Below are positions 348 to 32,465 of a DNA stretch of 32,465 nt, one piece after another. A program made the position numbers and the translations under genes. The stretch comes from Acidobacteriaceae bacterium (GTDB lineage Bacteria; Acidobacteriota; Terriglobia; Terriglobales; Acidobacteriaceae), in NCBI GenBank assembly GCA_025356095.1, contig JANXUR010000080.1:1-32465 (forward strand). Reading direction: 5' to 3'. How positions within the stretch are numbered: position 1 is the first letter of the stretch; every line of letters starts with the position of its first letter. Under the pieces are notes generated by a model, which was given only the letters and a program-made list of their open reading frames with translations, ran no database searches and was not told the DNA's origin.

Positions 348-353
348 TAAAAT
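348..353 (+). promoter_or_regulatory. Candidate -10 element for a leaderless EamA-family transcript
   Basis: The hexamer TAAAAT, preceded by TG, ends six bases before the ATG at 360. No purine-rich ribosome binding site lies between them. A transcript starting about 7 nt after the hexamer would begin at the start codon. No convincing -35 box is visible. The same geometry recurs at other genes in the window. Confidence 0.4.
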
Positions 354-2967: not shown

Positions 2968-3012
2968 GGTTGCGGTGGAAGAAGCAAGCCACGCAGGGAG
3001 CTACACTAGGCC

Positions 3013-3055
3013 TTAAATTGACCTTAAATTGACTTCAAATTGACCTGAAATGACC
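3013..3055 (+). repeat. 11-bp direct tandem repeat (four units) running into the selB start codon
   Basis: Three 11-bp units lie head to tail: TTAAATTGACC at 3013, TTAAATTGACT at 3024 and TCAAATTGACC at 3035. A fourth unit at 3046, TGAAATGACC, has lost one T. That loss creates the ATG at 3050 used as the selB start. The tract is AT-rich against GC-rich surroundings and contains no purine-rich ribosome binding site. An 11-bp period puts the units on one face of the helix, as in response-regulator operators, but simple slippage is also possible. Confidence 0.85.
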
Positions 3056-6333: not shown

Positions 6334-6531
6334 AGCGAACTTCCTTTCGTGGGCCCGAGGTCCGCAGGCAAGTGGGCAGAAAGTGAGTTCGCACAACCCA
6401 GATGATGGCAAGCAAGGTGGACTTCTGTCCTCTCCGCGGACCGGATGCGCCCTTTGCGCGCTGGTAGAGTATCACAAGCAATGGTAGGGTCAGTGGCTCG
6501 AGTGCACTGCGTCCTGCTGTAATCTACAGGT

Positions 6532-7965
6532 GTGTCTAATCATTTCTCACCGGACTTACCAGCCTTACCAGCCTCACCGGCCTCACCGGCCTCACCGGCC
6601 TTACCGGCCTTACCGGCCTTATCGGCAGAAACTTCACCCCAACCCATTCGCGTCATCGGCGCGGGCCTGGCGGGCTGCGAGGCGGCTTGGCAGTGTGCGC
6701 GGCGCGGCCTCGCGGTCGAGCTGTGGGAGATGCGTCCGGTGCGCTCGACCCATGCGCACCAAACGGCGGACTTCGCCGAACTGGTGTGCTCGAACTCACT
6801 GAAGTCGGATAGCGAAAACACCGCGCCGTGGCTGCTGAAAGAAGAAATGCGGCGTGCGAACTCGCTGCTGATGCAACTAGCGCGCGAAACGGCAGTGCCC
6901 GCAGGCCATGCGCTGGCGGTGGATCGCGAGGTGTTCGCCAGACGCGTGACCGAGGCGATTGCCGCCGAGCCGCTGATAACCATTCGGCGCGAGGAGTTTA
7001 CGCAAGTGGACGAGGGCAGCGGCTACACCCTGCTGGCGAGCGGGCCGCTTACCTCGGATGCACTAAGCGCGGAGGTGGCGCGGCTGAGCGGCAGCGAGCA
7101 TCTCTATTTTTATGATTCCATCAGCCCCATCGTAGAAGCGGATTCGATTGACATGTCGCGCGTTTATATGGCCGCGCGCTACGACAAAGGCACGGCGGAT
7201 TACATCAACTGCCCAATGACACGCGAGGAGTATGAGCGCTTTCTGGATGCGCTGATTGCCGCGCGTCCGGTGGAAGGCCACGACTGGGAGAAGCTCAACT
7301 ATTTTGAAGGCTGCCTGCCGATTGAAGAGATTGCGCGGCGCGGGCGCGACACGCTGCGCTTCGGTCCCATGAAGCCCGTGGGACTCATTGACCCGCGGTC
7401 GGGCAAGCGTCCGTATGCAGTGGTGCAGTTGCGGCAGGAAAATCTGCGGGCGGATTCGTACAACTTGGTCGGCTTTCAAAATCACCTGAAGTTTGGCGAG
7501 CAGGCGCAAGTGCTGCGGCTGATTCCGGGGTTGGAAAACGCGAAGTTTCTACGCTATGGGCAGATTCACCGCAACACGTATATCAACGCGCCCACGCTGC
7601 TTACCTCCTCGCTGCAAATGCGGGCGCATCCGCGCGTAATGTTTGCGGGGCAGATTTGTGGAGTGGAAGGCTACGTGGAGTCGGTGGCGACGGGGCTGCT
7701 GGCGGGCTTGTATCTGGCGGCGCTGGTGCAGGGTCGCCTGCCAGTCACGGTGCCGCGCGCCACAGCGCATGGCTCGCTGGTGCACTACGTGACCGGAGCC
7801 GACCCCAAACATTTTCAGCCAGCAAATATCACGTTTGATCTGCTGCCCACGCTGGAGCCGCAAGTAAGGGATAAGAAATTGCGTCAGCAAATGCGCTGCG
7901 AGCTAGCTCTGCGCGAGTTTGCTGCGTGGTGGGGAAGCCTGCCGATTCCATCTTCGGCCCGCTAA
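6532..7965 (+). CDS. trmFO: Methylenetetrahydrofolate-tRNA-(uracil-5-)-methyltransferase TrmFO
   Basis: TrmFO makes ribothymidine (m5U54) in the T-loop of tRNA, using FAD and methylenetetrahydrofolate. The FAD-binding motif GAGLAG is at residues 43-48, and the ELVCSNSLKSD motif with the conserved Cys (C86) follows. The second conserved Cys is C227 in YINCPM. Near the end, ICGVEGYVESVATGLLAGL completes the FAD site. The protein is 477 residues, about 35 longer than usual. The excess is an N-terminal tail of repeated (S/L)PA triplets encoded by a 9-bp tandem repeat. No ATG, GTG or TTG lies in frame between the repeat and GAGLAG, so the tail is probably translated from the GTG at 6532. There is no Shine-Dalgarno; a weak TAATCT hexamer ends six bases before the GTG. 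Confidence 0.95.
   Translation: MSNHFSPDLPALPASPASPASPALPALPALSAETSPQPIRVIGAGLAGCEAAWQCARRGLAVELWEMRPVRSTHAHQTADFAELVCSNSLKSDSENTAPWLLKEEMRRANSLLMQLARETAVPAGHALAVDREVFARRVTEAIAAEPLITIRREEFTQVDEGSGYTLLASGPLTSDALSAEVARLSGSEHLYFYDSISPIVEADSIDMSRVYMAARYDKGTADYINCPMTREEYERFLDALIAARPVEGHDWEKLNYFEGCLPIEEIARRGRDTLRFGPMKPVGLIDPRSGKRPYAVVQLRQENLRADSYNLVGFQNHLKFGEQAQVLRLIPGLENAKFLRYGQIHRNTYINAPTLLTSSLQMRAHPRVMFAGQICGVEGYVESVATGLLAGLYLAALVQGRLPVTVPRATAHGSLVHYVTGADPKHFQPANITFDLLPTLEPQVRDKKLRQQMRCELALREFAAWWGSLPIPSSAR
6546..6626 (+). repeat. Nine-copy 9-bp tandem repeat in the 5' end of trmFO
   Basis: Nine units of 9 bp run without a gap: CTCACCGGA, CTTACCAGC twice, CTCACCGGC three times, CTTACCGGC twice and CTTATCGGC. 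They encode (S/L)-P-A triplets at about residues 6-32 of TrmFO. Because 9 is a multiple of 3, a change in copy number keeps the reading frame. The arrangement of identical neighbouring units suggests slippage expansion. Confidence 0.95.
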
Positions 7966-17706: not shown

Positions 17707-17714
17707 TATTATAA
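17707..17714 (+). promoter_or_regulatory. Candidate -10 element for a near-leaderless helicase transcript
   Basis: Overlapping hexamers TATTAT (17707-17712) and TTATAA (17709-17714) end seven to nine bases before the GTG at 17722. No Shine-Dalgarno lies between. Confidence 0.35.
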
Positions 17715-17721
17715 GAACTCT

Positions 17722-19854
17722 GTGGCTTCTGCATTCGATTCCGCCCATCCCGGTGCCCCGGGTACGCATGAATTAGGCGTAACGGCCTCGCCGCGTCCGC
17801 GCCGCGAACTCTCCTTGCATCAATTCTTTTCGCCCGGCGGTTTGCTCGCGCAAACGCATCCTGCCTACGAATTTCGCCGTGGACAACTGCAGATGGCGCA
17901 AGCGGTAGAGCTGGCGCTGAAAGAAAAACGCCACCTGATTGCCGAGGCGGGCACCGGTACCGGCAAGACGCTGGCTTACCTTGTCCCGGCGATTCTTTCG
18001 GGCAAGCGCGTCATCATTTCCACCGGAACCAAGAACTTGCAGGAACAAATCTTCCACAAAGATATCCCGTTTCTCGACCAAGTCTTTTTCCCCAACGGCG
18101 AAGATCGGCTGCGCGTTTGCTATATGAAGGGGCGGCAGAACTACTTGTGTCGTCAAAAGCTTTACGATCTGCGCAGCCAGCCTATCTTGAACGGCTTGGC
18201 TGAGATGGAGCAGTTCAGCAGCATTGAGCAGTGGGAAGCGATAACCACCACCGGCGACCGCGCCGAGCTAGGCACGTTGCCAGAAAATAGTCTGCTGTGG
18301 CCCAAGCTCGATGCCCGCACCGAAAAGTGTACCGGGCAAAAGTGCGCACAGTTTGACCGCTGCTTCATCACCGAGATGCGGCGCAAGGCAATGGAAAGCG
18401 ACATCGTGATTGTGAACCACCATCTGTTTTTCGCCGACCTCGCCATTCGGCAGGAGACCGATGGTGCGCCTGATGTGGGGATTTTACCCGAATTTGGCGC
18501 CGTGATTTTCGACGAGGCGCACGACCTAGAAGATGTGGCCAGCACCTATTTCGGCGTCACCGTAAGCAACCTGCGGGTGGATGAGTTGGCACGCGATGCC
18601 GAGATCGCGCTCACCAAGAACCGGCTGGTAACGGGGCCGCTGACCCAAGCCATCACCCGGGTGCGCGAGCGCTCGAACTTCTTTTTTAGCGCACTGCCGC
18701 CGGGCGACGGGCGATTCGCGTTTGTGAATCGCCACGAATTTTTGGAAGAAAATGGCGATGAATTTCTGGCGCTGCGGCAGGCACTTACCGGGCTGGGCTC
18801 CGAACTGGAAGGCATCGGCGAAAAGCCGGAAGAGGTTCACCAGTTGATTCGGCGCTCGGGCGAGTTGCGGGTGCAGTTAAGTTTTCTGCTGGAAAACGAA
18901 GACCGCAACACGGTGTTTTGGATAGAGCGCCGCGGCGGGATACGCGACGAAAAATTCGCTACTAATTTCGCTGTGCCAGACGACACCTCGTCACTACGGC
19001 AGCCGCAGCTTCAGCCCCGCACAAAGCAGACGCAGCGCCGCGGGCACCAGCAGGTGGTTTTGCAAGCCACACCGATAGATGTTTCGGCGATTCTGCGGCA
19101 GTCGCTGTTTGAGCGGCTGGAGTGCGCCATTCTCACTTCCGCCACGCTCGCCGTCAGCGGCAACTACAGCTACATCCGGCAGCGGCTGGGGTTTGAGCAT
19201 TGCCGCGAGTTGATGGTGCCCTCGCACTTTGACTACGCCAAGCAGGCCTTGCTCTATCTGCCGCCCGACTTGCCCGACCCGCGCGAACCCTTGTTCGCAC
19301 GACGTGCCGCCGACCGCATTCGCCAAATTCTAGAAGTGACGCGGGGCCGCGCCTTTTGCCTGTTCACCAGCTACGCGCTGATGCACGACGTTCACGACCG
19401 CCTGCTCGGCGAGTTGGAGCATCCCATGCTGCGGCAGGGAGACGCGCCGAGGTCTGCGCTGCTGGAAGAATTCAGGGCCACGCCGGGTGCGGTGTTGTTT
19501 GCCACGTCATCCTTCTGGCAGGGCGTGGACGTGCAGGGCGATCAGTTGAGCTGTGTGATTATTGACCGCCTGCCTTTCGCGGTGCCGAGCGACCCAGTGG
19601 TCGCGGCGCGCGTCCGCGCCGTGGACGACGCAGGCGGCAAAGCCTTTTTCGACTACCAGATTCCTTCGGCTGTAATCTCGCTGAAGCAGGGATTCGGGCG
19701 GCTCATCCGCTCGCTGAATGATCGAGGATTGCTGGTGTTGCTGGATAACCGCATCAGCAAGAAGCAGTACGGCAAGACGTTTCTGGAGAGTTTGCCACCA
19801 TACCGGCGAACCAGCGAACTGAGTGTGGTGCAGGAGTTTTTCGGCGGAAGCTAG
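17722..19854 (+). CDS. DinG/YoaA-type ATP-dependent DNA helicase with Fe-S cluster
   Basis: This 710-residue superfamily 2 helicase is of the XPD/DinG type, which unwinds DNA 5' to 3' in repair and in clearing R-loops or damaged forks. Walker A is AEAGTGTGKT with K82, and Walker B is the DEAH box at 264-267. Four cysteines in the XPD-like spacing, C143, C203, C208 and C214, lie between motif I and motif II and should hold a 4Fe-4S cluster. The C-terminal RecA-like lobe shows FCLFTSYALMHDV, a SSFWQGVDVQG motif and the motif VI sequence QGFGRLIRS. No N-terminal exonuclease domain is present. The length fits E. coli DinG/YoaA (about 640-720). The start is the GTG at 17722, without a Shine-Dalgarno. 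The split DUF5677-like locus follows 17 bp later. Confidence 0.92.
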   Translation: MASAFDSAHPGAPGTHELGVTASPRPRRELSLHQFFSPGGLLAQTHPAYEFRRGQLQMAQAVELALKEKRHLIAEAGTGTGKTLAYLVPAILSGKRVIISTGTKNLQEQIFHKDIPFLDQVFFPNGEDRLRVCYMKGRQNYLCRQKLYDLRSQPILNGLAEMEQFSSIEQWEAITTTGDRAELGTLPENSLLWPKLDARTEKCTGQKCAQFDRCFITEMRRKAMESDIVIVNHHLFFADLAIRQETDGAPDVGILPEFGAVIFDEAHDLEDVASTYFGVTVSNLRVDELARDAEIALTKNRLVTGPLTQAITRVRERSNFFFSALPPGDGRFAFVNRHEFLEENGDEFLALRQALTGLGSELEGIGEKPEEVHQLIRRSGELRVQLSFLLENEDRNTVFWIERRGGIRDEKFATNFAVPDDTSSLRQPQLQPRTKQTQRRGHQQVVLQATPIDVSAILRQSLFERLECAILTSATLAVSGNYSYIRQRLGFEHCRELMVPSHFDYAKQALLYLPPDLPDPREPLFARRAADRIRQILEVTRGRAFCLFTSYALMHDVHDRLLGELEHPMLRQGDAPRSALLEEFRATPGAVLFATSSFWQGVDVQGDQLSCVIIDRLPFAVPSDPVVAARVRAVDDAGGKAFFDYQIPSAVISLKQGFGRLIRSLNDRGLLVLLDNRISKKQYGKTFLESLPPYRRTSELSVVQEFFGGS

Positions 19855-22911: not shown

Positions 22912-24015
22912 ATGAAGAAGTTCGCAATGATGATTTCGCTGTTCGCTCTGGTCGCCGCGCTGGCTGTTCCAGCGGCGCTGGCGCAGGCCACAGGCACCGT
23001 CAAGGGTACTTGCACTGATAAAGATGGCAAGCCCATCGCCGACGCGGTCGTGGAATGGCTCAGCACCGATTCGGGGCACAAATACTCCATCAAAACCAAC
23101 AGCAAGGGTGAATACTTCTCACTGGGTATCACGCCCGGCAAGTACAAGGTCACGCTGACCAAAGACGGTGTGGCGATCTTCAACTTCAACGGAGTCCCCG
23201 TAGCCACCGAAGAGCTCAAGGTGGACTTCGACATGAAGAAGGAGTTGGCGAACTCGCAGGTCGCCGCCCAGTCGCAAATGAATGAAGAGCAGAAGGCGGC
23301 CCGGGAAAAGGCACTGAAAGAAAATGCCAACATTAAAACCCTGAATGCCAAGCTGACTGCTGCCCGCGACGCCCGCAAGGCGACGCCCCCGGACTTTGAT
23401 ACTGCCATCAAGATGATGGACGATGCCACGCAGCTTGACACCAGTAAAGACATCCTGTGGTACGAACTCGCTGAAGGCTATCGGGGCAAGGGCCGTTTGA
23501 CGGAAAAGACCGACCGCGCCGCTGCTGGAGATCTCTACGCCAAAGCCGTAGATGCCTATAGCAAGGCCATCACCCTTAAGCCCGCAGCCGCTTACTACAA
23601 CAATCTCGGCGAAGTGCTTTCCCGCTCTGGCAAAACCGAGGATGGCGTGAAGGCCTACACGGAGGCCGCCACGCTTGATCCGGCGAACGCTGGCTCTTAC
23701 TACTTCAACATGGGCGCGGTGCTCACCAACTCGGGCAAGATTGACGAAGCTATTGATGCCTTCCAAAAGAGCGTTGTCGCTGATCCCACCAAGGCCGAGG
23801 CCTACTATCAACTGGGCATTGGCCTTATGGGCAAAGCGACCTTTGACAAAGCGGGTCATGCGGTTCCGGCCGATGGCACCGTGGAGGCGTTCCAAAAATA
23901 TCTGGAATTGGCCCCCACCGGCGCGAACGCCGAAACCGCCAAAGCCATGCTCGATAGCTTTAGCGCCACAGTTGATACCAGCTTCAGCAAGAAGAAGCCC
24001 GCAGGCAAGAAGTAG
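22912..24015 (+). CDS. Secreted protein with carboxypeptidase-regulatory-like domain and TPR repeats
   Basis: This 367-residue protein has a signal peptide (MKKFAMMISLFALVAALAVP, cut near AALAQ). A transthyretin-like carboxypeptidase-regulatory beta-sandwich follows (about 28-105: GTVKGTCTDKDGKPIADAVV, then GEYFSLGITPGKYKVTL). Next come a charged helical linker (about 110-160) and four or so TPR units (about 165-350), with YYNNLGEVLSRSGKTEDGVKAY and YYFNMGAVLTNSGKIDEAID as the clearest. It should be a periplasmic or surface protein-interaction factor; this domain pair is common in Acidobacteriota, with no assigned function. A GGGAGG site six bases before the ATG indicates strong translation. 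A strong terminator follows the stop, so it is probably monocistronic. Confidence 0.85.
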   Translation: MKKFAMMISLFALVAALAVPAALAQATGTVKGTCTDKDGKPIADAVVEWLSTDSGHKYSIKTNSKGEYFSLGITPGKYKVTLTKDGVAIFNFNGVPVATEELKVDFDMKKELANSQVAAQSQMNEEQKAAREKALKENANIKTLNAKLTAARDARKATPPDFDTAIKMMDDATQLDTSKDILWYELAEGYRGKGRLTEKTDRAAAGDLYAKAVDAYSKAITLKPAAAYYNNLGEVLSRSGKTEDGVKAYTEAATLDPANAGSYYFNMGAVLTNSGKIDEAIDAFQKSVVADPTKAEAYYQLGIGLMGKATFDKAGHAVPADGTVEAFQKYLELAPTGANAETAKAMLDSFSATVDTSFSKKKPAGKK

Positions 24016-24038
24016 GGGTTCCTGCATCGCAGAAATCA

Positions 24039-24069
24039 GGGGCTGCCCACGGGCAGCCCCTTTTGCTTT
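24039..24069 (+). terminator. Strong intrinsic terminator after the TPR gene
   Basis: A 9-bp stem (GGGGCTGCC with GGCAGCCCC) and a 4-nt loop are followed directly by TTTTGCTTT. It lies 24 bp past the stop at 24015 and ends only 23 bp before the moeA start codon. Confidence 0.9.
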
Positions 24070-24080
24070 ACGTTTGCGGC

Positions 24081-24086
24081 TATCAT
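24081..24086 (+). promoter_or_regulatory. Candidate -10 element for a leaderless moeA transcript
   Basis: TATCAT ends six bases before the moeA ATG at 24093. The strong terminator finishing near 24069 leaves no room for a long leader, and no Shine-Dalgarno is present. The -35 region would overlap the terminator stem. Confidence 0.5.
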
Positions 24087-24092
24087 TTTGCA

Positions 24093-25388
24093 ATGACTTT
24101 TTCTGCGACTCTTCCTGCTGCGAGTTCTGCGGCTGAGCCGGATAGCCCGCTGACTTTTGAGCAAGCGCGCCGGGTCGTGGAGTCTCACGCCGAAAAGCTG
24201 CTGCCACGCGCCGTAGAAACGCTACCTCTGCTGGAAGCGGTGGGCCGAGCGCTCGCCGAGCCCATTTCTGCCGACCGCGACTTTCCGCCCTTTGCTCGCG
24301 CCGCGCGCGACGGCTTCGCCGTTCGCGCCGCAGACGTGGCCTCTGTGCCTGCGCCGCTGCGGTTCGTCGGCGAGATTCGGGCTGGCGATGCGCTGGCCAC
24401 TTTGCCCTATATCCATGCGGGGCAGTGTGCTGCCATCATGACAGGCGCCGCCGCGCCGCCCAGTGCGGATAGCGTGGTGATGGTCGAATACACCCAGCGC
24501 GACGGTGATCAAATCACCATCAGGCGCAGCGTCAGTTGCGGCGAAAACATTGTCCCTACCGGCAGTGAGAGCGTCGCGGGCAACCTGCTGCTACCTGTTG
24601 GTACCCGGCTGGATCAAGCAGCGGTCTCCGTAGCGGCAGCGGTGGGTGCGGAGCACGTCAGCGTTTTCCGGCGGCCCCGCGTAGCTATTCTCTCCACCGG
24701 CGATGAGATTGTAGGCATTGGATCCGCGCCCGCGCCGCACCAACTGCGCAACTCGAATAGCTATTCGCTGGCCGCGCAGGTGATGTCGGGCGGCGGCGAG
24801 CCCGTCATCCTGCCCATTGCGCCGGACGAACCAGAGCGCCTGCGCGAGTTGCTCGCCGTGGGCTTGCAAGCCGACTTGCTGCTCGTCAGCGGGGGCGTTT
24901 CCATGGGTCAGTATGATCTGGTAGAACCCTGCCTTAGCCAGTTAGGGGCAGAATTCTTCTTTACCGGCGCCAAAATACAGCCGGGCAAGCCAATCGTCTT
25001 TGGACGCGCACCCAAGCCTGACTCGGGCGAAGCGGCGGAAGAATCCCCCAGCACGTACTTCTTTGGGCTGCCCGGCAATCCAGTCTCTACCATGGTGACC
25101 TTCACGCTGTTTGTTGCGCCTCTGCTGGATGCGCTGCGGGGCGCGGCCCCGGCTCCACTGGTGTTTTTGCGGGCCAAGCTGGCGGCAGAAATTCACACCA
25201 AGCCCGGCCTCACCCGCTTTCTGCCTGCAATACTTTCTGGCTTTGCTCAGAATGCGAGGGTTGAATTAGTGCGCTGGCAAGGCTCCGGCGACATCGCTGC
25301 GACCGCGCGGGCCAACTGCTATGCGGTGGTGCCTCCAGATTGCGAGCAGATTGCCGCCGGAGAATGGGTGGGCGTGCTGCTGCGGTAA
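24093..25388 (+). CDS. moeA: Molybdopterin molybdenumtransferase MoeA
   Basis: MoeA inserts molybdate into adenylylated molybdopterin in the last step of molybdenum cofactor synthesis. From the ATG at 24093 the protein has 431 residues. It shows the family's landmarks: the ISADRDFPPFARAARDGFAV region with the conserved DG pair, GAAAPPSADSVVMVEYT, RVAILSTGDEIV, and the MoCF-binding fold around LLVSGGVSMGQYDLV. FGLPGNPVSTMVTF follows. The C-terminal beta domain (domain IV) is complete. An in-frame start at 24063 was rejected because it lies within the upstream terminator. No Shine-Dalgarno is seen. moaC and a mogA-type gene follow on the same strand, after a 178-bp gap. Confidence 0.96.
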   Translation: MTFSATLPAASSAAEPDSPLTFEQARRVVESHAEKLLPRAVETLPLLEAVGRALAEPISADRDFPPFARAARDGFAVRAADVASVPAPLRFVGEIRAGDALATLPYIHAGQCAAIMTGAAAPPSADSVVMVEYTQRDGDQITIRRSVSCGENIVPTGSESVAGNLLLPVGTRLDQAAVSVAAAVGAEHVSVFRRPRVAILSTGDEIVGIGSAPAPHQLRNSNSYSLAAQVMSGGGEPVILPIAPDEPERLRELLAVGLQADLLLVSGGVSMGQYDLVEPCLSQLGAEFFFTGAKIQPGKPIVFGRAPKPDSGEAAEESPSTYFFGLPGNPVSTMVTFTLFVAPLLDALRGAAPAPLVFLRAKLAAEIHTKPGLTRFLPAILSGFAQNARVELVRWQGSGDIAATARANCYAVVPPDCEQIAAGEWVGVLLR

Positions 25389-25566: not shown

Positions 25567-26061
25567 TTGGCAAATTTGGCGAAGAAGCTATCGCACTACG
25601 ATGCTCGTGGCCGCGCCCGCATGGTGGACGTTTCCGCCAAGGCCGCCACGGACCGCACAGCCACGGCCAGCGCTTTTGTGGCGCTGTCAGCGGCGGTGCT
25701 GCGGGCGCTGCCCAAGAATCCCAAAGGCGACGCGCTGGAAGTCGCGCGGCTCGCAGGGGTGCTGGCCGCCAAACGCACCAGCGACCTGATTCCGCTATGC
25801 CATCCTCTGCCGCTCACGCTGGTGGATGTGGAGTTGGTGAAACGACGCGGCGGCATTGCCATTACCGCGCGGGCCAAGACCAAGGCGGAGACGGGAGTCG
25901 AGATGGAGGCGCTCGTCGCGGCAAGCGTGGCCGCGCTCACCATCTATGACATGTGCAAAGCACTGGATAAGGGCATTGAGATTCGCGAGATTTTTCTGCT
26001 GGAAAAAACCGGCGGCAAAAGCGGCGACTACCGCCGAGCCAAAGCGACGGCGAAACAATAA
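25567..26061 (+). CDS. moaC: Cyclic pyranopterin monophosphate synthase MoaC
   Basis: MoaC, working with the radical enzyme MoaA, forms cyclic pyranopterin monophosphate in the first stage of molybdenum cofactor synthesis. With the TTG start at 25567 the protein has 164 residues, the usual size. It begins [25 protein letters not shown], matching the family N-terminus. The conserved segments are all present: [16 protein letters not shown] (with H79), [15 protein letters not shown] and IYDMCKA. The catalytic pair falls at D128 and K131, the same numbers as in E. coli MoaC. The longer frame from 25459 would add 36 residues encoded largely by a tandem repeat, and lacks a ribosome site. The stop overlaps the next start by one base. 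Confidence 0.95.
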
Positions 26062-27976: not shown

Positions 27977-29026
27977 CTACCGTGACCCCATCCCCTCATC
28001 CACCGGATGCAGGTTGGCGTCGAGCTGCACCCACGCCTGCAACGCTCCGCGCTTGCCCGCTTCGCCATAGCTAAAGCGCAAATCGTGGAAGTGCACCACA
28101 TAGCCTTTTCCCTCGCCCAGCGATTCGACTTCACTCACCGGATACTGCGCCCAATCCAGATAAATCCGCCCCAGATTCGATTGCTTGGCCGCCCGCGTCA
28201 CGGGCGTTTCTTCCGGCTTCAGGTGCACCTGCATCGCGCCATCATAATCCACGTCAGTCAGGCGCGAATCCACGTTCATCGAGACCAGCGCCGGGGGTGT
28301 CTCCACCACGCCGTACCAGGAGAAAGGATTCACCCAGACCGGGTAGACGCCGTAGCGGAGGGCATTCTCGTTTTGATAGGTGCGGGCCTGCATCGCTGCT
28401 AGTGCCCGGCGATGTTGGTAGTCGCGCACACCCCAAACCGCCAGCACACCCATGAGCGCGACGGTCGCCCCCCCGCGCCCCGGAAATCGGTTGCGTCGGG
28501 CTCCCACTTCTTCGTTGATAAGTGCAAAGAGCAGCGGCAGCACCAAGCCGCCAATTAAAAACACATACAGCAGCGGCTCCAGAATGAAGACGATATCCCA
28601 CGAATACCAACGCTCTGAAAAAGGCCAGAAGGGACGCACACCGTAGTTGTTGGTGAAGTCCAGCAAAATGTGTACAACCACACCCAGATACGCGTAGAAA
28701 AACAGTAGCACCCAACGCGCTGGCGGGTCGCCCGGATTCGCGCCGGGTCGAGGCTTGCGGCGCAAGTGGCGCTGCCCCCATCCCCAGCGGGAAAAGATCC
28801 AGACAAACGCGACCACGGCGGCGGCCACCAGCAAGCCGCCAAGAAACGAATGCGTAAAGCCGCGATGATGCGCAAATCCAAAGACCGAACCTTTGGCGTA
28901 TGCCAGCACGTCAACGTCCGGTGCCTCGGCTGCAATTGCCAGGGTCAGCGTGGCAAAAGCCGTCTTGCGATTCAGCCCGGCCCGGCCCATGCAGCCGCCG
29001 GTCAAAAAATGGGTGATGGGTTCCAT
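27977..29026 (-). CDS. YdjM-type membrane-bound metal-dependent hydrolase
   Basis: From the ATG at 29026 the protein has about 349 residues. It opens MEPITHFLTGG, and AEAPDVDVL then supplies acidic residues near a helix. The signature HHRGFTHS around residues 54-61 is typical of the LexA-binding/inner-membrane putative hydrolase family (PF04307). Further helices cover about 62-80, 105-125 and 150-170, and HILLDFTNNYG supplies another His/Asp pair. The C-terminal half (about 215-349) is a soluble domain. The substrate is not known. A TTG two codons upstream is an alternative start. The gene is divergent from the secreted TPR gene, across a 180-bp gap. Confidence 0.85.
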   Translation of the reverse strand: MEPITHFLTGGCMGRAGLNRKTAFATLTLAIAAEAPDVDVLAYAKGSVFGFAHHRGFTHSFLGGLLVAAAVVAFVWIFSRWGWGQRHLRRKPRPGANPGDPPARWVLLFFYAYLGVVVHILLDFTNNYGVRPFWPFSERWYSWDIVFILEPLLYVFLIGGLVLPLLFALINEEVGARRNRFPGRGGATVALMGVLAVWGVRDYQHRRALAAMQARTYQNENALRYGVYPVWVNPFSWYGVVETPPALVSMNVDSRLTDVDYDGAMQVHLKPEETPVTRAAKQSNLGRIYLDWAQYPVSEVESLGEGKGYVVHFHDLRFSYGEAGKRGALQAWVQLDANLHPVDEGMGSR

Positions 29027-29206
29027 GCACAATGAGTTTAGGGGAATATTGCGAAATCAGCACAGCATGGGCCAAAACTTACCGCAAAATCGCACGAAAA
29101 TATCACTTGCACTCGCCAGCCTTGCAGGACTACTCTTTTCCCGTCACCAGTCGAGTCGGCTTTCCAGCCCGCACGGCTCGCACCCCGCAGCTTCTGGAGG
29201 TCTTCT

Positions 29207-32465
<3,259 letters not shown>

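Follow-up and report, generated by a model that had tools for sequence, protein, structure and literature searches.

A minor class of genes in the genome of this soil bacterium of the Acidobacteriaceae appears to carry sigma-70-type −10 boxes set so that transcription would begin with the start codon or no more than about one base away from it, a reading to which we give a probability of about 0.85. RNA polymerase normally initiates 6–8 nt downstream of the −10 hexamer, and ribosomes bind the 5′-terminal start codon directly on known leaderless mRNAs. In the mechanism we propose, RNA polymerase would recognise a sigma-70-type −10 box abutting the start codon and, since a spacer of 6–7 nt matches the usual initiation distance, the transcript would open with the start codon itself, giving a message with neither a leader nor a Shine–Dalgarno (SD) sequence, whose 5′-terminal AUG or GTG ribosomes would be expected to bind directly. 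For the genes described below we infer both the transcription start and leaderless translation from the DNA sequence.

−10-like hexamers before start codons in the window and the genome

The window, i.e. the whole stretch of DNA analysed (32,465 nt), is an entire contig of a 3.53 Mb genome in 120 contigs. A sequence-only reading of it had claimed −10-like hexamers ending 6–9 nt before the starts of five genes without an SD (EamA, trmFO, a dinG-like gene, moeA and ligA), and all five hexamers were found in place, with spacers of 6, 6, 9, 6 and 7 nt, respectively, the first T lying at −12 in moeA, EamA and trmFO, at −13 in ligA and at −15 in dinG. The missing SD was likewise confirmed, GGAG, GAGG, AGGA and AAGGA being absent from positions −18 to −5 of all five genes. 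Pfam supports the names EamA, MoeA, LigA and GidA/TrmFO. Among 26 tested window starts (mog entering twice, with alternative starts), TANNNT at a spacer of 5–9 nt occurred before 6 versus 1.4 expected under a first-order Markov null (P = 0.002), an SD core before 10, and neither signal before the remaining 10, so that a missing SD does not by itself imply a TA box. The same null gave P = 0.011 for at least five boxes, and judged from the window alone the excess is suggestive, not decisive. SD cores were present upstream of the ankyrin (AAGGA) and FG-GAP (AAGGAG) genes, the TPR gene at 22912 (GGAGG) and g29207 (GGAGG). Good SD sites had been claimed for FG-GAP, ankyrin, two TPR genes and moaC; the claim stood for the first two and for the TPR gene at 22912, while g29207, possibly the second TPR gene of that reading, gave no Pfam match at 1e-5, and for moaC it stands only if the gene starts at TTG 25567 (SD posterior 0.99), the alternative start at 25576 having no SD core.

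The genome-wide test covered 1.33 Mb (38% of the genome), made up of the window and 80 further stretches. A simple custom gene caller identified 946 genes there whose 5′ end is closed; their starts were set blind to any −10 box, the only inputs being start-codon use, the coding score and an SD model. The no-SD set comprised the 260 genes that had an SD posterior < 0.3 and at least 60 nt of sequence upstream. TANNNT stood at −12 in 18 and at −13 in 10 of these genes. Offsets −31 to −54 gave a background of 2.7 per offset, against which the count at −12 has P = 7e-10, and at −11 to −15 there were 44 occurrences versus 13.5 expected (P = 4e-11). The mode of the profile was at spacer 6, with a tail at offsets −14 to −16, and compared with 60 composition-matched decoys TANNNT ranked first at −12 and joint first at −13. 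Only 1 of 434 SD genes had TANNNT at −12, a low count that is partly structural because the SD occupies −10 to −15. A count of TANNNT split by presence of an SD, as the sequence-only reading had proposed, thus peaks at −12 in the no-SD class, and its view that two initiation classes coexist, one with a −10 box at the start and one with an SD, passes the genome test. Genes divergent from their neighbour, or at least 50 nt after it, made up 33/37 of the no-SD genes with TANNNT at −11 to −14, 188/223 of the other no-SD genes and 318/434 of the SD genes, the contrast between the first two groups being small.

We also fitted, by EM, a second free motif started from TATAAT under a flat position prior. 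The resulting motif, tAnAaT, had its offset mode at −12 and was assigned to 145 genes, 52 of them exactly at −12 and 93/946 at −11 to −15. When the windows were shifted by 30 or 60 nt, the interval −11 to −15 still held 37 or 39 genes, but position −12 itself only 7 or 0; in shuffled windows, where other motifs emerged, the interval held 54, 33 and 48 genes. The figure of 93/946 is therefore an upper bound. Of six runs begun from other motifs, two converged on the tAnAaT signal (in one case displaced by a base) and four ended in different weak motifs, and the gain in likelihood over the best unrelated motif was small (78063.3 versus 78058.5, i.e. 4.8 log units). The class is thus a minor one, of about 3% (strict TANNNT excess) to 10% (EM, background uncorrected) of genes, most of the others being SD-led. 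The same scripts run on 300 kb of Deinococcus deserti plasmid 3 found TANNNT at −11, −12 and −13 in 4, 6 and 3 of 44 no-SD genes over a background of 0.17, while in 300 kb of E. coli K-12 a single case at −11 was the only one at these three offsets, a weak negative control since only 13 of its genes lack an SD. EM counts at −11 to −15 were 29/233 in D. deserti, so low that the pipeline may undercount, and 12/232 in E. coli (motif tTTaAT, 9 at −13), which indicates that such counts include background. All ten proteins scanned against Pfam from the list of TA-class genes, nine hand-picked from the genome and one from the window, gave a match. The domain begins at residue 1–6 in LexA, MnmE, IspD, IspF (YgbB), thiolase and YdjM, so these six starts are well placed, and at residue 18–46 in GatB, LpxD, MurJ and RuvX, where the start position is less constrained.

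These counts bear on the view that the hexamers are chance matches near starts, AT-rich upstream sequence making TANNNT common. Besides the modest probability for the five hexamers from the window alone, this view can draw on the crude profiles, in which starts taken from coding score only, or pooled candidate starts, gave a diffuse upstream enrichment of TANNNT with no sharp peak; we read that diffuseness as misplaced starts because the SD-only, TA-blind start model sharpened the peak. Since TANNNT outranks all 60 composition-matched decoys at −12, and the peak there also exceeds the shifted windows, and since moeA and ligA keep their boxes amid diverged flanks (see below), we regard chance as improbable; the decoys, shifted windows and shuffles led us to reject it for the class, while it may still account for trmFO and EamA, whose boxes are not conserved.

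moeA and ligA keep the box among relatives

Matches were found among 60 genomes of the family for moeA (55, the own genome included here and in the following counts), ligA (56), trmFO (60), dinG (56), EamA (40) and moaC (56). The best 25–30 loci per gene were examined, a choice that favours the closest relatives, and TANNNT at a spacer of 5–8 nt before any candidate start was counted alongside 60 decoys. For moeA, 41 of 42 further loci were added, a fragment without a start being omitted, and after three identical sequences were dropped from the 70 given the set held 67. Across orthologues the arrangement is kept for moeA and ligA, has a wider spacing in dinG and is not conserved for trmFO and EamA. 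A conserved −35 element was looked for in the upstream regions of the orthologues and none was seen.

The molybdopterin biosynthesis gene moeA (24093–25388, forward strand; Pfam MoeA_N and MoeA_C) is preceded by TATCAT (24081–24086, forward strand), 6 nt from the ATG at 24093, with a TA posterior of 0.84 in the EM genome model. A terminator claimed to end about 23 bp before this start is present as a terminator-like stem-loop after the upstream TPR gene (24038–24061, forward strand; 10 pairs, 8 of them G–C). Its T-rich tail extends to 24069, and the 23 nt from there to the ATG would leave little room for any leader. The 63-nt stretch 24030–24092 folds at −24.5 kcal/mol (z −2.7), and the terminator pattern scan alone was not significant (1 found versus 0.6 expected). 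Scanning 23900–24300 with a sigma-70 consensus revealed no full promoter.

In the enlarged set 50/67 moeA orthologues had TANNNT at a spacer of 5–8 nt (37 at 6 and 11 at 7) against a decoy median of 8, and in 31 of these 50 the hexamer was TATCAT itself. TANNNT ranked second among the 60 decoys, the one decoy ahead of it, TNNNAT, being part of the same TATNAT hexamer. Pairwise identity in the 50 box-bearing orthologues was 0.87 in the hexamer and 0.26 in the flanks and, while three hexamer columns are fixed by the selection criterion, columns 3 and 5, which are free of it, held 1.4 and 2.0 bits. With the flanks at chance identity, common descent alone does not preserve the hexamer, in a set that is uncorrected for relatedness and may retain near-identical species. 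An SD core preceded a candidate start in 4/67 loci, and some box-less orthologues (e.g. L041 and L039) carry an SD-like core instead, so that class changes occur. From the box and its conservation we consider moeA very probably leaderless. The closest named relatives of its product come mostly from acidobacterial metagenome assemblies, many titled Candidatus Sulfotelmatobacter, Acidobacteriaceae or Terriglobia. L041, on a contig titled Rhodanobacteraceae, carries a moeA 48% identical to the acidobacterial one here, with an SD-like core before its start; the record may be misbinned.

The NAD-dependent DNA ligase gene ligA (31066–32465, forward strand; identified by Pfam) is cut by the contig end, and the EM genome model left it unscored because it runs off the contig. 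Its box, TATAAT (31053–31058, forward strand), lies 7 nt from the ATG at 31066. TANNNT at a spacer of 5–8 nt was present in 23/29 ligA orthologues and ranked first among the 60 decoys, whose median was 8; spacers in the orthologues span 5–10 nt, and an SD core preceded a candidate start in 1/29. Beyond the family, 85 genomes have a ligA match, and in 20 chosen from 20 other families TANNNT at a spacer of 5–9 nt was found in four, in one case at a distance of 111 nt upstream from the protein match and in a second together with an SD core. The conservation within the family points to a ligA message that is very probably leaderless as well, its start being predicted from the box.

A hexamer held at a fixed distance from a start could instead be the binding site of a regulator, or a translational signal. 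The moeA TATCAT, and the TATTATAGAGACTC block of dinG described below, are indeed more conserved than a bare −10 box requires, but TAnAaT precedes many unrelated genes at the same offset and the hexamers differ between genes, and we hold this explanation to be very improbable.

Spacing in dinG, and the remaining window genes

The dinG-like gene, whose product has DEAD and Helicase_C_2 domains (Pfam), carries TATTAT (17707–17712, forward strand) 9 nt before its GTG at 17722; TATAAG (17710–17715) overlaps this box and is 6 nt from the start, and TATAGA overlaps likewise. TANNNT at a spacer of 5–8 nt was found in only 5/29 orthologues (decoy median 3; rank 21 among 60), TATTAT at spacer 9 in 10/29, and TATNAT at spacers 7–11 in 19/29, of which 16 have GTG as start codon. 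The EM genome model places the gene outside the TA class (TA 0.27, SD 0.43). A spacing of 9 nt predicts a leader of 2–3 nt, unless the overlapping TATAAG or TATAGA at spacer 6 serves, and the leader is probably 0–3 nt long, with 2–3 nt the likelier length. An extended TATTATAGAGACTC-n-GTG block, which occupies 17707–17722 here, is common to many of the 29 loci and is conserved beyond a plain −10 box. The divergent neighbour of the gene in the window is a Der/EngA-type GTPase.

It is here that a short leader has to be weighed, the boxes then being functional −10 elements which leave 2–10 nt before the start, so that the messages would be short-leadered, not leaderless. The mostly 9-nt, conserved spacing in dinG, with a AGAGACTC-like conserved stretch between box and start, would suit such an arrangement, as would the range of ligA spacers and the tail of the genome profile at −14 to −16. 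The mode at exactly spacer 6, in the moeA orthologues and genome-wide, instead equals the usual distance from the −10 box to +1, and we consider short leaders unlikely, though well within reach, as an account of the class.

Transcription from the start codon is less well placed in two of the five genes. The EamA hexamer, TAAAAT (348–353, forward strand), lies 6 nt before the ATG at 360 and has a TA-class posterior of 0.99 in the EM genome model; the box is not conserved, TANNNT at a spacer of 5–8 nt occurring in 3/24 orthologues (decoy median 1; rank 4 among 60), and a leaderless EamA message is possible. In the weak case of trmFO, TAATCT (6520–6525, forward strand) precedes a GTG at 6532 by 6 nt. 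This box too is not conserved (3/29 orthologues; decoy median 2; rank 6 among 60), and the gene caller and genome model place the start at 6739 and not at 6532. The GTG at 6532 lies in an N-terminal extension (6532–6640) of about 35 low-complexity residues with LPA and SPA repeats, and in most of 17 trmFO relatives inspected the match begins only past it. We regard trmFO as a doubtful leaderless gene. The proposal that all five genes are leaderless therefore fared unevenly: relatives argue strongly for it in moeA and ligA, the dinG box is kept at a spacing of 9 nt, EamA matches the genome motif, and trmFO is in doubt.

One candidate absent from the earlier list is TAAACT (29035–29040, reverse strand), 8 nt from the ATG at 29026 of a YdjM-family gene (posterior 0.95), the sixth of the six boxed starts counted in the window. 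In the window the EM model also assigns SelB (0.74) and queE (0.82, hexamer at −7) to the TA class, where the resemblance to a −10 box at the distance expected of leaderless genes is poorer. Directly before the SelB-like gene, an 11-bp CTTAAATTGAC-like unit is repeated three times in tandem (3012–3044). In the orthologue count moaC was meant to represent SD genes but failed as a control: TANNNT at a spacer of 5–8 nt was found in 9/29 orthologues (decoy median 2) and ranked first among the 60 decoys. Only 4/29 had an SD core ahead of a candidate start, and moaC may be partly TA-led in relatives.

Predicted leaderless genes in Acidobacteriota

The arrangement resembles the TA-led class of Zheng et al. 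2011 (PMC3160421), which in the part of that work drawn on here is defined by TANNNT about 12 bp before the start, in genes that have no SD and stand beside SD-led genes. That part also gives leaderless genes as predicted in all three Acidobacteria genomes included (mean 13.3%, range 9.7–19.4%), so the present case would be a new instance and not new in kind. It differs in that theirs was a genome-wide statistic on other genomes, while here moeA, ligA and dinG were followed through relatives, and in the lower share, about 3–10%. As far as the review of leaderless mRNAs in D. deserti and mycobacteria (PMC9031893) is used here, those systems have transcriptomic support, with about 60% of D. deserti genes leaderless; the likeness lies in messages that begin at or near the start codon, as we would predict in our case, and in the −10 offset, which our scripts recover from D. 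deserti plasmid 3 as well, whereas the acidobacterial class is minor and predicted from sequence. Acidobacteriia appear with a CCUCC anti-SD core in the relevant portion of PMC10783764. Our literature search found no paper with mapped transcript starts in Acidobacteria, which is not proof that none exists.

More speculatively, and with odds well below even, leaderlessness may in this family be preserved for certain genes (moeA, ligA and the near-leaderless dinG), the distance from −10 box to start being selected while the sequence upstream, including any −35 element, is randomised; such genes might form a co-regulated translation class, e.g. one that under stress relies on 70S ribosomes or on IF2.

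These results add gene-by-gene footprint evidence to a leaderless class for which the papers located give a bulk prediction in Acidobacteriota. The phylum is abundant in soil but few of its species have been cultured, and both gene-start prediction and promoter finding in it should allow for such a class, for which moeA and ligA are clean test cases.
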